Shown here: positions 1-6,018 of the stretch, in pieces
Layout of the letters: each line of letters begins with the position of its first letter
Numbering within the stretch: the stretch's first letter is position 1
Source of the DNA: Actinomycetes bacterium
GTDB taxonomy: Bacteria > Actinomycetota > Actinomycetes > Actinomycetales > Beutenbergiaceae
Assembly (NCBI GenBank): GCA_021793935.1
Contig: JAJYRV010000135.1
Location: 1-6,018, forward strand
DNA: 6,018 nucleotides
Direction of reading: 5' to 3'
Notes under the pieces: generated by a model
The model's input: only the letters and a program-made list of their open reading frames with translations
Database searches by the model: none
Told to the model about the DNA's origin: nothing
Translations under genes and position numbers: made by a program

Positions 1-1306
1 CCGAGGGGCGGGTATCAGCGGGGCGGAACGCGTCGTCGGCGTCGATCTCGGTGAGGTTCTCCCGCAGCCACTGCCCGTAGGGGTGCTTGGAGGCGATCTG
101 GGCGCGCACGGCGTCGGAGGGCAGCAAGTTGCCCACGACCGTGTCAACGGCGATGAGCTCGCCGGGGGCGAGCCGGCCCTTCTTCGTGATCGTCGAGGGG
201 TCGAGATCGACCACCCCGGTCTCGGAGGCGAACACGACGAGCCCGGTTTCGGTCACCCAGTACCGCCCGCTGCGGGTGCCGTGGCGGTCGAGGACCGCGC
301 CCACGAGGTAGCCGTCGGCGAAACACGTCACCCCGGAGCCTTCCCACGGCTCGACGACGGTGGTGCAGTAGTTGTAGAAGTCCCGTTCGGCTTCGCTCAT
401 CCGGTTCCCCCACTGTTCGGGGATCGCCATCCGTAGGGCGTGGGTGAGTTGGCGCCCCGAGCGGTGAAGCAGTTCGACGAACTCATCGAGGCTTCCTTCG
501 GCGGTGCGTTCCTCAGGAACGGCGCGCAGGCAGGAGCCGAGCAGGTCCGATTCCATCAGCGGCAGGCGGGCGTCGAGCCAGGTCCGGTTCGCAGGGTAGG
601 AGTGGATGGCCCCGTCGTGGGCGAGGATGCGGTGTGGTTGGGCCTGGTTCCACGACTCGTAGTGGCTTCCCTGGCAGGAGTGGACGACGGCGATCTCGGT
701 GCGGTACAGCGGATCGGCGAGGTCGGCGTAGAACACCGCGAGCCGCGGGGCAGGAACCAGCCCCTTGTACACGATCGTCGTGCGCGACAGCGAGGCGAAG
801 TAGGCGAGGGAGTTCTGCTCCACGCGGCGCCGGAGCCGGTACAGACCCGCGTCGATCTCCACTTGGGAGACCTCGGTGGCGGGGAAGAGCACCACTTGGC
901 GCATCGCAGGCAGGAGCGCCCGGGGTTCCATCTCGACGATCGTGTCATTGATCGGCACCTCACGCCAGGTGAGGACGGCGAACCCCTCCTCGGCGGCGAT
1001 CTCGGTGATGAGGTCCTGCTCCGCTTGCACTTCCTGCAGGAAGGCGAACCCGACGGCGTAGCGGCCGACCGGGGGGAGATCGGAACCGATCTCGGCGCGC
1101 AACACCCGATCGGGGATGTGGGTGAGCACCCCGCTCGCCCGTGAGCAACCGTGGTGGAGGTTCTCCAGCGCTGCGAGGGCGGTGTCGAGGACGTCCCGCC
1201 CGGGGGTGCCCCGCAGGGTCGCGACGAAGGCGACTCCTTCGTGGCCGGAGTGGACGGCGGGAGTTTGGGCAGAGCCACGTTGGTTCGTTTGTCGAACCTT
1301 ACTCAT
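1..1306 (-). CDS. GltB-like glutamate synthase large-subunit homologue, N-terminal part, degenerate glutaminase domain (partial)
   Basis: I translated 435 codons from ATG at 1306 to the window edge and found no stop; the 3' end lies outside the window. AAGGA sits eight bases before the ATG. The fold follows the class II amidotransferase domain of GltB: GVAFVATLRG (24-33), ALENLHH (46-52), VYKGL (179-183), HSCQGSHYESW (209-219), RILAHDGAIH (226-235), DEFVELLHRSGR (274-285), MAIPEQW (293-299), VEPWEG (318-323), RYWVTETGLVVFASETGVVDLDPS (348-371, given here in two parts: RYWVTETGL and VVFASETGVVDLDPS). In usual GltB the first block reads HDACGVGF, where the Cys is the nucleophile; here it is SGHEGVAF, with Glu23 in that place. 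HSRFSTNT has become HSCQGSHY, AHNGEIN has become AHDGAIH, the SDS/SDT aspartate is lost (TAEGSLDE), and DRNGLRP is DRHGTRS. The loop normally reading RGATGAEPxTGDGAG is about eight residues shorter. Homology to GltB is secure; glutaminase activity is unlikely. Whether the synthase domain and a gltD follow cannot be seen. Confidence 0.88.
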   Translation of the reverse strand, partial: MSKVRQTNQRGSAQTPAVHSGHEGVAFVATLRGTPGRDVLDTALAALENLHHGCSRASGVLTHIPDRVLRAEIGSDLPPVGRYAVGFAFLQEVQAEQDLITEIAAEEGFAVLTWREVPINDTIVEMEPRALLPAMRQVVLFPATEVSQVEIDAGLYRLRRRVEQNSLAYFASLSRTTIVYKGLVPAPRLAVFYADLADPLYRTEIAVVHSCQGSHYESWNQAQPHRILAHDGAIHSYPANRTWLDARLPLMESDLLGSCLRAVPEERTAEGSLDEFVELLHRSGRQLTHALRMAIPEQWGNRMSEAERDFYNYCTTVVEPWEGSGVTCFADGYLVGAVLDRHGTRSGRYWVTETGLVVFASETGVVDLDPSTITKKGRLAPGELIAVDTVVGNLLPSDAVRAQIASKHPYGQWLRENLTEIDADDAFRPADTRPS

Positions 1307-1363
1307 CCGCGGCGTCCTTCCCTCTCGTCGATCATCGGTGGGGACGTCGCTGGCCCTCTCCTC

Positions 1364-1392
1364 ACTGTATCGGCCTTGCCTGGAGTTTTCGA
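1364..1392 (-). promoter_or_regulatory. Candidate sigma-70-type promoter for the GltB-like gene
   Basis: In the gap after lgt, read on the minus strand, TCGAAA (1392-1387) and TACAGT (1369-1364) are separated by 17 bases. Each matches the TTGACA/TATAAT consensus at four of six positions, and the -10 keeps the TANNNT pattern that matters most in actinobacteria. A start near 1357 would give a leader of about 50 bases ending in the GAAGGA ribosome-binding site at 1320-1315. The GltB-like gene could therefore be transcribed separately from the trp-lgt operon. I see no convincing rho-independent terminator in this gap, so read-through from lgt is also possible. Confidence 0.45.
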
Positions 1393-1408
1393 CTCGTCGC
1401 CGCGGCTG

Positions 1409-2287
1409 TTACCGAACCGTATCCTCACCCTCGGTCTCCACGTCCGCTTCCTCGGGTTCTCGACCCGGGAGCCACGCGCTATCTTCCCGGGGACCCTTGC
1501 GGCGAAGGATGAGGACCATCGCGACCGAGACGGCGAACACGAGCAGCGATACCCACACGTTCAGGCGCAGGCCGAGGATGTGTTCGGCCGTATCGATGCG
1601 GAGCATCTCGATCCACGAACGCCCGGCGGTGTAGAAGGCGACGTAGAGCCAGAACACCCGCCCGTGACCCAGGCGCCAGCGGCGGTCAACGGCGATGAGG
1701 ATCGCGGCCGCGGCGAGGTTCCACAGCAGTTCGTAGAGGAACGTCGGGTGGAAAAGTGTTCCACTGGGGTAATCCAACCCCTGCGCCGCGAGCGCCGCGT
1801 CAGAGATCTGCAGCCCCCAGGGGAGGTCGGTGGGCGCGCCGAACAGCTCCTGGTTGAAATAGTTCCCGATCCGACCCACCGCCTGGGCAATGAGGATGCC
1901 GGGCGCGAGGGCATCGGCGAACACCGTCAGCCGGAGCCCCTTGGAGCGCAGGTACCACCACGCCACTCCCGCGCCTGCGGGGATGGCGCCCCAGATGCCC
2001 AGGCCCCCTTCCCAGATGTACAGCGCCTTGACCGGGTCTCCGCCCGGCCCGAAATACGCGGCCGGGGAGGAGATCACGTGGTAGATTCGGGCGCCGATGA
2101 TGCCGGCGGGCACGGCCCACATCAGGGCATCGACGAGCACTCCCTCGGGTCCGCCCCGTTCCCGATACCGGCGCGAGGCGAGCCACCCGCCGATGATGAT
2201 CCCGGTGATGATAGCGATCGCGTAGGCCCGCAGTGGCAGGGGCCCGAGGTACCAGACGGCCTCCGATGGGCTGGGGATTCCGGTCAT
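1409..2287 (-). CDS. lgt: Prolipoprotein diacylglyceryl transferase
   Basis: Lgt is an integral membrane enzyme that moves diacylglycerol from phosphatidylglycerol to the lipobox cysteine of prolipoproteins, the first step of lipoprotein maturation. The 292-residue product is of normal length. It opens with WYLGPLPLRAYA (12-23) and then a membrane segment. The Lgt signature GRIGNYFNQELFG is at 138-150, aligning with GRIGNFINGELWG of E. coli and keeping the Arg, Asn and Glu of that motif. GGLGIWGA (94-101) is the actinobacterial form of the loop that holds a histidine in E. coli. The late segment AGRSWIEMLRID carries the second conserved arginine region. Several hydrophobic spans fit a multi-pass topology, and the last 30 or so residues form an acidic, Glu-rich cytoplasmic-type tail, which is common in this phylum. 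The ATG overlaps the trpA stop as ATGA and lacks a strong ribosome-binding site, so translation is probably coupled to trpA. Confidence 0.95.
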   Translation of the reverse strand: MTGIPSPSEAVWYLGPLPLRAYAIAIITGIIIGGWLASRRYRERGGPEGVLVDALMWAVPAGIIGARIYHVISSPAAYFGPGGDPVKALYIWEGGLGIWGAIPAGAGVAWWYLRSKGLRLTVFADALAPGILIAQAVGRIGNYFNQELFGAPTDLPWGLQISDAALAAQGLDYPSGTLFHPTFLYELLWNLAAAAILIAVDRRWRLGHGRVFWLYVAFYTAGRSWIEMLRIDTAEHILGLRLNVWVSLLVFAVSVAMVLILRRKGPREDSAWLPGREPEEADVETEGEDTVR

Positions 2288-3080
2288 CGCGTGCCCCGGA
2301 CGCCGCGGGCGAGGTCGGTGATGAGGTCCTCCACCGCTCCGAGCGCCTCGGCCTCATCCCCAGAGGAGGCGAGCGCTTTGACCGCCGCCGATCCCACGAT
2401 CACCCCGTCGGCGTAGGCGGCCACCTGGGCGGCCTGTTCGGCGTTGGATACGCCCAGCCCCACGCACACCCGCGGCGCGCCGGCGGCCCGGCAGCGCTGA
2501 ACTAGCTCCTCGGCGGCCTGCCCCACACTCGCCCGGGTGCCGGTGACCCCCATCGTCGAGGCGGCGTAGAGGAAACCCCGGCCCGCTGCGGCGGTCATCT
2601 TCAGCCGCTCGTCGGTGGATGAGGGGGCGACGACGAACACCTTGTCGAGGTCATGGGCGTCGGCCGCGGCGCTCCATTCGCCCGCTTCGTCCGGGGTGAG
2701 GTCGGCGGTGATGAGGCCCGCTCCCCCGTGCTCGGCGAGGTCGGCGGCGAACCGCTCCACGCCGTAGCGGAACACCGGGTTGTAGTACGTCATCACGAGG
2801 GTGGGCGCGCCCGCGTGGGATACCTCCCGGACCGCGGTGAACACGTCGGCGATCCGCACCCCTTGCGCGAGCGCCTGCTGGGCGGCCGCTTCGATCACGG
2901 GGCCATCCATCCCCGGGTCGGTGTAGGGCAGGCCGAGTTCGATGATGTCGGCGCCCGCGGCGATCGCGGTCCTGGCGGCCTTGATCGACAGGTCGAGGTT
3001 CGGGTACCCCACGGGCAGGTAGATGATGAGGGCGGCACGGTTTTCGGCCTTCGCCGCGTCAATCGCAGCCGCAGTATGGC

Positions 3081-3084
<4 letters not shown>
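2284..3084 (-). CDS. trpA: Tryptophan synthase alpha subunit
   Basis: TrpA cleaves indole-3-glycerol phosphate to glyceraldehyde-3-phosphate and indole, and passes the indole to TrpB through the complex's internal tunnel. The 266-residue product has the usual length for this TIM-barrel protein. The catalytic pair is present and numbered as in the Salmonella enzyme: Glu49 in [11 protein letters not shown] (47-57) and Asp60 in MDGPVIE. Other family blocks are YLPVGYPN (22-29), [16 protein letters not shown] (98-113), [11 protein letters not shown] (124-134), [10 protein letters not shown], and the phosphate-binding end VCVGLGVSN (206-214) with ADGVIVGSA (225-233). The start codon is GTG (3084-3082), overlapping the trpB TGA as GTGA. 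A good ribosome-binding site, GAAGGGAG, lies six bases before it inside the end of trpB. The form YLPVGYP and [10 protein letters not shown] is what I expect in actinobacteria. Nothing looks damaged. Confidence 0.97.
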
Positions 3085-4300
<1,216 letters not shown>

Positions 4301-4304
<4 letters not shown>

Positions 4305-5113
4305 GGCCGGGCCGCCCTGAGCGCGGGGTGGGAACCTGCGGCGACCATGTCGGCGACGGCGGTTCTCGGGCTGCCCTGCGTCACGAGGGCCTCCCCGACG
4401 AGCACGGCATCGGCGCCGCGCCGGGCATAGTCAAGGACGTCGTGGGGTCCGCGCACCCCGGATTCGGCGACCTTGAGCACGTTCGCGGGGATGAGCGGGG
4501 CGAGTTCGGCGAACACCTCCCGGTTCACCTCCAGGGTGTGCAGGTTGCGGGCGTTGACACCGATGACCTTCGCCCCCGCATCGACGGCGCGGTGCACTTC
4601 CTCCGCGGTGTGGGCTTCCACGAGCGCGGTCATTCCCAGGGAGTTCACGCGATCGAGGAGTCCTTCGAGGGCGGGTTGTTCGAGGGCGGCGACGATGAGG
4701 AGCACGAGGTCGGCCCCGTGCGCGCGGGCTTCCCAGACTTGGTAGGGGGTGACGACGAAATCCTTGCGCAACAGTGGCACGTTCACCTGCGCGCGCACGT
4801 CATCGAAATCCGCGAGCGACCCGCCGAAGCGGCGTTCTTCGGTGAGTACGGAGATGACCGCCGCTCCGCCCGCTTCATAGTCGACGGCCAGTCCGGCCGG
4901 GTCCGCGATGTCGGCGAGGGCTCCCTTGGACGGGCTCGAACGCTTCACCTCGGCGATGACCGTGACCATGTCGTCACGACCGAGCGCGCTCACCCCGTCC
5001 TTGGCTGACTCCCTTGCCAGCGCCTTTTCCTTCAGTGCATCCAACGGCAACGCGGCCTCTCGCTTGGCCAGGTCGACCCGCACATCCGCGATGATCTGTT
5101 CCAAAATGGTCAT
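4301..5113 (-). CDS. trpC: Indole-3-glycerol phosphate synthase
   Basis: TrpC closes the ring of the CdRP intermediate (1-(o-carboxyphenylamino)-1-deoxyribulose-5-phosphate), releasing CO2 and water, to give indole-3-glycerol phosphate, the substrate of TrpA. The 270-residue product is a single-domain TIM barrel of normal length with no fused TrpF. Catalytic and binding residues are all visible: Glu55 and Lys57 in [13 protein letters not shown] (52-64), Lys117 in [10 protein letters not shown] (112-121), Glu166 in LVEAHT (164-169), Asn187 in IGVNARNL (184-191), and Glu217-Ser218 in AESGV (216-220). [12 protein letters not shown] (88-99) and [11 protein letters not shown] near the C-terminus complete the phosphate site. 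The ATG at 5113 has AGGAAGGG ending four bases upstream, a strong ribosome-binding site. It is the first gene of the coupled trpC-trpB-trpA-lgt run. In actinobacteria the missing TrpF step is usually done by the bifunctional PriA; that is family knowledge and is not visible here. Confidence 0.97.
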
Positions 5114-5136
5114 TTCGCCCTTCCTGGTTCCTCTCC

Positions 5137-5166
5137 ATGGTAGAGCCGATCTCCCGGTGACTCGAA
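5137..5166 (-). promoter_or_regulatory. Weak promoter candidate ahead of trpC
   Basis: Read on the minus strand, TACCAT (5142-5137) matches the -10 consensus at four of six positions and fits TANNNT. The hexamer 18 bases upstream (5166-5161, TTCGAG) is a poor -35. A transcript starting about seven bases after the -10 would have a leader of roughly 15-20 bases that carries the AGGAAGGG ribosome-binding site, a sensible layout. The trp genes could equally be read through from the DUF2752 gene only 81 bp upstream. Confidence 0.35.
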
Positions 5167-5171
5167 CCGGG
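5153..5171. repeat. 6-bp inverted repeat with 7-base spacer upstream of trpC
   Basis: CCCGGT (5153-5158) and ACCGGG (5166-5171) are perfect inverted arms around a 7-base centre. The dyad lies 40-58 bases before the trpC start and covers the -35 position of the candidate promoter. It could act as a repressor site in DNA or fold as a small RNA hairpin on a read-through transcript. No T-rich tract follows on either strand, so it is not a standard terminator. In G+C-rich DNA a 6-bp dyad can arise by chance. Confidence 0.4.
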
Positions 5172-5194
5172 TCATGCTGCGAGACGGCGACGGG

Positions 5195-5578
5195 TTAGAA
5201 GTTGCGCAGGATCCCGAATCCGACGATGACGATCGCGCCGATGACGACGATAGTCGGCGGGATCTGCCATGCGGGAAGATTGCGCCAGGCTCGCCACCAC
5301 CACCCGGCGATGAGCAGCGCGGCGACCGGCAGGGCGATGGTGAGCAGCGGGTTCATTGCCCACGCACCGGCGAGGTCGAGGTGGGCGAGGTCATGGACGG
5401 CGCGAAGCCCCCCGCAGGTCGGGCACAGGTAGCCGGTGAACGCGAGGATGGGGCACATCCCGTAGCCGCCCTCGTGGGGGCTGCGGACGGTGACCAGGAG
5501 GGTCGCGGCGCCGAGAATGACAATGGTGATACTCGGCGTTTTCACGTCCCGTTCGAGCGCGCGAGTGAGAGTTGCCAT
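5195..5578 (-). CDS. DUF2752-type small membrane protein with conserved cysteine motif
   Basis: The 127-residue product is a small membrane protein of unknown function. Hydrophobic spans lie at about 17-31, 77-95 and 106-124. Between the first two is the block that marks DUF2752 proteins: CPILAFTGYLCPTCGGLRA (42-60), then HDLAHLDLAGAWAMNPLL (62-79). The three cysteines (42, 52, 55) and the following Arg and Asn-Pro are the family's invariant-type positions; a metal-binding or redox role is possible but unproven. An in-frame TAA lies four codons before the ATG, so this is the earliest start. A GGGGAAGG tract lies 12 bases upstream, rather far for a ribosome-binding site. The gene follows the DUF4190 gene by 30 bp and precedes trpC by 81 bp. 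From memory, DUF2752 genes sit next to trpC in other actinobacteria, including streptomycetes, so the linkage may be old. Confidence 0.85.
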   Translation of the reverse strand: MATLTRALERDVKTPSITIVILGAATLLVTVRSPHEGGYGMCPILAFTGYLCPTCGGLRAVHDLAHLDLAGAWAMNPLLTIALPVAALLIAGWWWRAWRNLPAWQIPPTIVVIGAIVIVGFGILRNF

Positions 5579-5584
5579 AGAGCC

Positions 5585-5590
5585 AGGTTA
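5585..5590 (-). promoter_or_regulatory. Possible -10 element for leaderless transcription of the DUF2752 gene
   Basis: TAACCT (minus strand) fits TANNNT and ends six bases before the ATG at 5578, so a transcript would begin at or next to the start codon. Leaderless messages with this spacing are common in actinobacteria. The base evidence is a single hexamer; the region 17-18 bases further upstream has no clear -35. Confidence 0.25.
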
Positions 5591-5608
5591 CCTTCCCCGC
5601 CGCCGGGC

Positions 5609-6018
5609 CTAACCGGTGACGATCGCGAGGAAGAGGATGAACCAGCTAAACACTCCGAGGGCTGCTCCGATGCTGCCGGTGATGATCCCACCAACGGCGG
5701 ATCCGCCGTTGGTCGCCCGCCCCTCGGAGGCGAACCTGCGCCCCTTGACGCCCAGGACGATCGCGATGATCCCCATCGGCACCGAGAGCAGGATGGTTAC
5801 GCACAGCACGATGGAAAGGATCCCGAGGATCAACGCCGCGCTCGCCGTGCCGTTCTTCTCCGCAGCCTGCGAGGGCGCGTACACGTATCCATACCCGGGA
5901 GCGGAACCGGGGAGGGCCCCGCCCGGGGGTGGGGGCAGGTTCGGCGCCGGCGAACTCTGCTCAGGCCCGCCGAAGGGATAGCCCGCAGGCGCCGCCGGCG
6001 GGGGCGGGGGCGGTGACG
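5609..6018 (-). CDS. DUF4190-type proline-rich membrane protein, C-terminal part (partial)
   Basis: The start lies beyond the right edge; 135 codons before the TAG stop are visible. The first 44 or so visible residues are rich in Pro, Gly and Ala (runs such as SPPPPPPAAPAG and NLPPPPGGALPG, plus YGYVYAP), a disordered cytoplasmic tail of the kind often found ahead of DUF4190. Next comes EKNGTASAALILGILSIVL, the usual family entry (NGxAxASLVLGIL), then a second span SVPMGIIAIVLGVKG, a short polar loop GRRFASEGRATNGG and a last long span ending FSWFILFLAIVTG. The NG...SAVGGIITGSIG block corresponds to the family's second NGxAIAGxVLG repeat. A GTG at 5884 could be taken as a start but would remove the proline-rich segment, which is open and in frame, so a start upstream is preferred. 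Function is unknown. It is 30 bp ahead of the DUF2752 gene and probably co-transcribed with it. Confidence 0.82.
   Translation of the reverse strand, partial: SPPPPPPAAPAGYPFGGPEQSSPAPNLPPPPGGALPGSAPGYGYVYAPSQAAEKNGTASAALILGILSIVLCVTILLSVPMGIIAIVLGVKGRRFASEGRATNGGSAVGGIITGSIGAALGVFSWFILFLAIVTG
5690..5713. repeat. Perfect 24-bp palindrome inside the DUF4190 gene
   Basis: Twelve consecutive base pairs are self-complementary with no spacer, with arms reading ACCAACGGCGGA and TCCGCCGTTGGT centred between 5701 and 5702. I checked every pair. It lies in frame in the polar loop between membrane spans and encodes TNGGSAVG. As RNA it could form a 10-bp stem closed by a GAUC tetraloop. No T-tract follows, so it is not a standard terminator. 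Confidence 0.9.

Follow-up and report, generated by a model that had tools for sequence, protein, structure and literature searches.

Here we describe an open reading frame encoding a homologue of GltB, the large chain of glutamate synthase, in a 6,018-nucleotide stretch of DNA from an Actinomycetes bacterium of the Beutenbergiaceae (GenBank assembly GCA_021793935.1, contig JAJYRV010000135.1, positions 1 to 6,018; this whole stretch is hereafter referred to as the window). Glutamate synthase, familiar from textbooks, couples two active sites and contains an ammonia tunnel as well as an electron-transfer chain. All genes of the window lie on the minus strand (coordinates below are window positions), in the order DUF4190-like protein (the match falls slightly below the Pfam cut-off), DUF2752 protein, trpC, trpB, trpA, lgt and finally the open frame at 2–1306, here termed pseudo-GltB. 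This frame starts with an ATG, preceded at a distance of 8 nucleotides by AAGGA, which resembles a ribosome-binding site (1315–1319), and runs without a stop for 435 codons, off the window edge. These codons, out of approximately 1,241, form the N-terminal part of the gene and encode a degenerate class II glutamine amidotransferase domain; anything said of the remaining gene is taken from relatives, the closest of which are P0001 (95% identity) and P0002 (93%).

The glutaminase-type domain is recognizable along its whole length, as a sequence-only reading of the window had proposed: Pfam GATase_2 (PF00310) matches residues 24–413 over profile positions 2–420 (E = 2.1e-99). Five solved sequences are matched by the 435 residues, all of them glutamate synthase large chains. 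Both the whole-domain match and the fold make the domain a homologue of the class II (N-terminal nucleophile (Ntn)) amidotransferases of PF00310 (PurF, GlmS and AsnB), and modelling predicts that the Ntn-hydrolase fold is kept. A search with the window domain set in a full-length frame (7,998 candidates scored; best 120 of 2,482) returned nine full-length relatives of 1,218–1,248 residues, 63–95% identical in the search and 62–95% identical when aligned over this domain (hereafter the clade). Ordinary GltBs among these best 120 are mostly around 1,520 residues long and at most 48% identical.

Computed alignments, which supersede the motif comparison of the sequence-only reading, bear out its claim that catalytic residues are lost at several sites (Glu23, Cys211, Asp231, Ala269 and DRHGTRS). 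Residues were tallied in an alignment with 248 other domain proteins, with proteins gapped at a site left out of its count. The nucleophile position holds Cys in every one of the 236 other proteins counted, and Glu in all nine clade members and in the window (Glu23 codon, 1238–1240). By sequence, residue 23 aligns with Cys22 of Bacillus subtilis GltA; by structural comparison, it is the first residue to align, opposite residue 1 in each of the seven glutamate synthase chains listed (residue 22 for 7mfm), and opposite residue 1 or 2 in the listed PurF, GlmS/GFAT, AsnB/ASNS and EgtC chains. A conserved Cys at the mature N terminus, which would have spoken against the loss, was looked for, and the alignment puts Glu there. 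Unlike the PF00310 enzymes, pseudo-GltB has Glu in place of the Cys nucleophile, with 22 residues encoded ahead of it. Ordinary GltBs carry an N-terminal propeptide that is cleaved off ahead of Cys1. The clade has a leader of its own at this end, with the consensus MSKVRQPN (Met1 and Asn8 in all nine members); the window reads MSKVRQTN (1283–1306).

The oxyanion Asn and the glutamine-binding Arg and Asp are also replaced, and none of the three is kept in any of the nine relatives. The Arg of HSRFSTN, shared by 246 other proteins apart from a rounding remainder, is Cys in four clade members, Gly in four and His in one, and is Cys211 in the window (674–676). HNGEIN has become HDGxIH (Asp231–His235, 602–616), with Asp231 and His235 in all nine members; its Asn is found in 244 of 244 other proteins, and Asp in nine of nine clade members. 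Outside the clade, no Glu occurs at the nucleophile site and no Asp at the oxyanion Asn site (236 and 244 proteins with a letter there, respectively). The Asp of SDS is kept in 98% of 246 others; the clade has Ala (three), Thr (two), Ile (two), Val (one) and Pro (one) at this variable position, and in the window Ala269–Glu270 (497–502) replaces Asp-Ser, Glu270 being present in all nine members. DRNGLRP is replaced by DRHGTRS (269–289), which lies within one of the blocks that the clade conserves best; its Asn is His in the window and in eight relatives and Tyr in the ninth. The glycine-rich loop, read earlier as about eight residues short, is accounted for by a deletion of the eight residues RGAxGAEx between His52 and Gly53 (1148–1153, junction at 1150/1151), in the window and in all nine relatives. 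As these alignments show, the glutaminase active site of the window protein is dismantled.

Some of the replacements are uniform. Glu23, Asp231, His235, Ser236 and Glu270 occur in all nine clade members, at sites where 108 ordinary GltBs have other residues with a conservation of 98% or more. Cys328 (323–325) is also Cys in all nine, and in 9 of the 108 ordinary GltBs, and His342 is present in eight of nine. No domain of the clade is better conserved than the glutaminase domain (0.68), in which the three 25-residue blocks covering positions 326–400 are 60–68% invariant. These features could mean that the glutamine pocket has been rebuilt around the five uniform residues, perhaps with Cys328 and His342, to bind a metal or ligand in a new enzyme or sensor that carries out a new reaction or senses a metabolite. 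However, 176 of 411 glutaminase-domain positions are invariant in the clade, making uniform pocket residues unremarkable, and the positions of the former Arg (Cys, Gly or His) and Asp (Ala, Thr, Ile, Val or Pro) vary freely. The hint of pocket binding in the fixed new residues is for these reasons suggestive only, and we regard a new enzyme or sensor as rather doubtful.

The window stops short of the synthase half, and statements on that half rest on the nine full-length relatives. All nine contain the four Pfam domains, and their central, barrel and GXGXG beta-helix domains are still recognizable. The model of P0001 (residues 20–1213) aligns to 1ofe over 1,166 residues at 2.9 Å. By contrast with this retained architecture, the 3Fe-4S motif C-x5-C-x4-C, which all 110 ordinary proteins longer than 1,440 residues carry, is found in none of the nine. 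Relative to the ordinary protein P0010, the clade lacks residues 881–925 (GAMSYGSIS to NTGEGGE), 950–985 (QIKLAQGAKPGEGGQLPP onward), 1043–1057 (LISGHDGGTGASPLT) and 1120–1160, and ahead of these two further stretches of 32–33 residues each. The segments with GAMSxGxIS, NxGEGGE, KPGEGGQLP and SGHDGGTGA are absent from all nine; the deleted loops are those that hold flavin mononucleotide (FMN) and 2-oxoglutarate. G-x-M-G-x-D, which carries Met479 of Azospirillum (counted along the alignment), is present in 108 of 110 ordinary proteins and in no clade member. The strict motifs are not universal even in ordinary proteins, with counts of 107, 110, 110, 110, 108, 109, 106 and 108 of 110. Four of the nine members were scored against NCBIfam NF008730 and, at 540.5–582.5 bits, fell short of its equivalog cut-off of 1,047 bits; ordinary P0010 and P0012 scored 1,640 and 1,636 bits, and the window fragment, a partial sequence, 255 bits. 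By these sequence criteria the synthase active site of the nine relatives is dismantled in its FMN-site loops, its 3Fe-4S cysteines and its Met479-type electron-transfer motif.

This second loss bears on the proposal, made in the sequence-only reading, of an ammonia-dependent synthase, in which the glutaminase half alone would be lost and the synthase half would reduce 2-iminoglutarate formed with free ammonia. The window by itself, which shows the glutaminase half only, is compatible with such an enzyme. But the FMN-site segments and the three iron–sulfur (Fe-S) cysteines are missing from all nine full-length relatives, two of which are 93–95% identical to the window over 435 residues, and the proposal is disfavoured and very improbable. 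Two other strongly diverged GltB-like proteins, P0246 (1,466 residues) and P0249 (1,452 residues), have end branches of 1.34 and 1.4; they keep the Fe-S cysteines and KPGEGGQLP and are without G-x-M-G-x-D. These two divergent, long-branched proteins were excluded from the 108-protein conservation count.

A gene that has lost both active sites may simply be decaying: GltB would be dispensable in the lineage, and the frames would survive through chance or recent loss. The long branch of the clade and the disappearance of most ordinary constraint from the synthase and central domains would fit such a history. The frame in the window is nevertheless intact and its codon use ordinary, as had been noted from the sequence: G+C content at third codon positions is 0.88, against 0.83–0.89 in lgt and trpABC, and among the three minus-strand frames the coding score is positive only in the true one. 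In neutral simulations to 71% and 63% identity, 435 codons accumulated on average 5.0 and 6.9 stops, and 0 of 500 replicates were stop-free at either level. Because 189 of 500 replicates lacked stops at 95% identity, the close pair by itself would prove nothing, and the argument against decay rests on the diverged members. The nine full-length members fall in a single clade and reach down to 57% identity with P0001. Conservation within it is uneven, peaking in the Ntn core and the beta-helix, and its six best-conserved blocks are 60–76% invariant. No shortened clade member was found among the matches listed in length windows of approximately 240–760 (7,998 candidates scored; best 120 of 152), 460–1,465 and 760–2,410 residues; since the databases list predicted proteins, broken copies would appear as shorter entries. 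Together, the full-length members, the domain-specific conservation and the neutral simulations argue for purifying selection on the clade at the level of its sequences. The view that this is maintained divergence and not a broken gene is strengthened by the nine intact relatives, and decay appears improbable.

A profile of the C-terminal two-thirds (7,992 candidates scored, all 26 matches covered) returned the nine clade members (at least 1,091 bits) and 17 more proteins (at most 491 bits). The nine are clusters that comprise 23 member sequences; eight clusters list one source only, ‘lgn’, while the window is flagged as encoding the ninth. In a full-length tree of the nine members and 57 of 110 other long proteins, built by a quick method, subject to a long-branch warning and used only for monophyly, the clade is one group (Shimodaira–Hasegawa-like approximate likelihood-ratio test (SH-aLRT) 100). 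A glutaminase-domain tree of 39 hand-chosen rows groups the clade with the window (100/100) and joins them with Ruania, an Actinotalea caeni record and Pseudactinotalea (97/99), on a long stem (2.29). This placement suggests, as a lead only owing to the long stem, that the clade arose in Micrococcales near Ruania.

Scans limited to short peptide patterns found no clade member in the GTDB r220 species genomes, either with the window (24 pattern matches, 0 relatives) or with the clade alignment (85 pattern matches, one a distant partial match of 30% identity over query residues 312–386 in a Nitrospiraceae genome). With few such patterns, IMG/VR viral contigs likewise gave 28 pattern matches and no relatives. 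Among plasmids, 105 records had a match, each below 60% identity. The single source of eight clusters, the window origin of the ninth and the pattern-limited scans of GTDB and IMG/VR without a member are what one might expect of an artefact of assembly, chimerism or misprediction. Against this, separate clusters at 57–89% identity to P0001 carry identical deletions and substitutions, and the neighbours in the window are normal and in normal order; we consider an artefact the least probable of the explanations, and hardly credible.

The neighbours are trpC (indole-3-glycerol phosphate synthase, 4301–5113), trpB (3081–4304; a PALP-family match, named from its position and from annotated plasmid matches), trpA (2284–3084) and, immediately upstream of pseudo-GltB, lgt (prolipoprotein diacylglyceryl transferase, 1409–2287). 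Overlaps of 4 bases at trpC–trpB, trpB–trpA and trpA–lgt (2284–4304) indicate one tightly coupled operon, and a 102-base gap separates lgt from pseudo-GltB. The top plasmid match of TrpB, at 72.5%, is from Microbacterium, which fits an actinobacterial source but says nothing further. The gene order in a Microbacterium record (NZ_CP072877.1) is trpB, lgt, a gltB match, gltD and pyk, which places the window gene in the slot usual for gltB. In the simplest history, the gltB native to this slot took on a new job; the alternative is a duplicate. In the Microbacterium record itself (L002, 418756–423077), the gltB stretch matches in eight pieces with open frames of several lengths and no gene listed, which suggests a frameshift in this copy or poor assembly of it.

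We consider it very likely that the gene is a maintained pseudoenzyme. The conserved catalytic motifs of the family are missing from the sequence, which is how a pseudoenzyme is defined in PMC10211241, and indirect evidence indicates that the gene is kept by selection and is not decaying. Should it be a pseudoenzyme, a structural or regulatory subunit is the role we would favour, with some reserve. Overall, the explanation that we find reasonably probable is that both sites are lost, that the shape of the alpha subunit is kept and that a non-catalytic job is most likely. The window protein would continue past the window edge as its relatives do, and would neither hydrolyse glutamine, bind FMN or an Fe-S cluster, nor make glutamate. 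It would retain the alpha-subunit shape and act by binding a partner or metabolite, candidate partners being an active GltB or GltD, another nitrogen enzyme or some other protein. Because the best-conserved parts are the Ntn core and the beta-helix, a non-catalytic binding job is most likely. A regulator of a true GltB and an enzyme with another substrate, both raised in the sequence-only reading, are possible.

Several points weigh against this interpretation. Most ordinary constraint is gone from the central and synthase halves, which may reflect partial relaxation, and a long branch leads to the clade. Selection is inferred from protein sequences and not from the ratio of nonsynonymous to synonymous substitution rates. 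The model alignments contain ordinary GltBs, which biases them to the known fold, and a regulatory role would draw on general precedent. Uniform Glu23, Asp231, His235 and Glu270, at or beside the old pocket, are also compatible with a catalytic or ligand site of a new kind. A bolder version of the maintained pseudoenzyme, which we put forward tentatively, is that the rebuilt Ntn pocket (Glu23, Asp231, His235 and Glu270, with His342 and Cys328 near in sequence to former motifs) forms with the beta-helix part of a new binding or sensing device. From the old gltB position, it might bind a new ligand or metal and sense nitrogen status or control a partner enzyme, and would be the first glutamate synthase pseudoenzyme.

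Compared with GltB (the alpha subunit of glutamate synthase; PDB 1ea0, 1ofd/1ofe and 7mfm), the relatives have the same four-domain order and, in the P0001 model, the same predicted fold, and the gene has the same position after trp genes and lgt, with gltD and pyk next in the Microbacterium record. They differ in being about 280 residues shorter and in lacking the nucleophile Cys, the oxyanion Asn, the glutamine-binding Arg and Asp and, in the synthase half, the FMN-site loops, 3Fe-4S cysteines and Met479-type motif. Split or stand-alone GltB-domain proteins (for example, archaeal synthase-only forms and the GlxBCD/Mgs type) reuse single domains, and the known forms keep the active site of the domain they carry, whereas in the pseudo-GltB family no domain has split off and neither active site survives.

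Regulation of an active enzyme by a pseudoenzyme relative is well established (PMC10211241 and PMC6829848). PDX1.2, a regulator of plant vitamin B6 synthesis (PMC6829848), and the inactive S-adenosylmethionine decarboxylase homologue, for which an active partner and the effect on that partner are stated (PMC10211241), resemble pseudo-GltB as clade-restricted or inactive homologues of metabolic enzymes. Unlike either, the pseudo-GltB family has two separate active sites gone from one chain of approximately 1,240 residues. In titles and the opening parts of abstracts, a literature search that covered few subscription journals found no description of an inactive glutamate synthase homologue, and ‘glutamate synthase’ does not occur in the main text of the pseudoenzyme review PMC10211241.

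Occupying the gltB slot and matching GATase_2 strongly, a gene of this kind may receive a glutamate synthase annotation and be mistaken for evidence of the glutamine synthetase–glutamate synthase (GS-GOGAT) pathway. A clade that keeps a scaffold of approximately 1,200 residues but has no catalytic machinery at either site would be a natural probe of what the glutamate synthase scaffold is for, apart from its chemistry.
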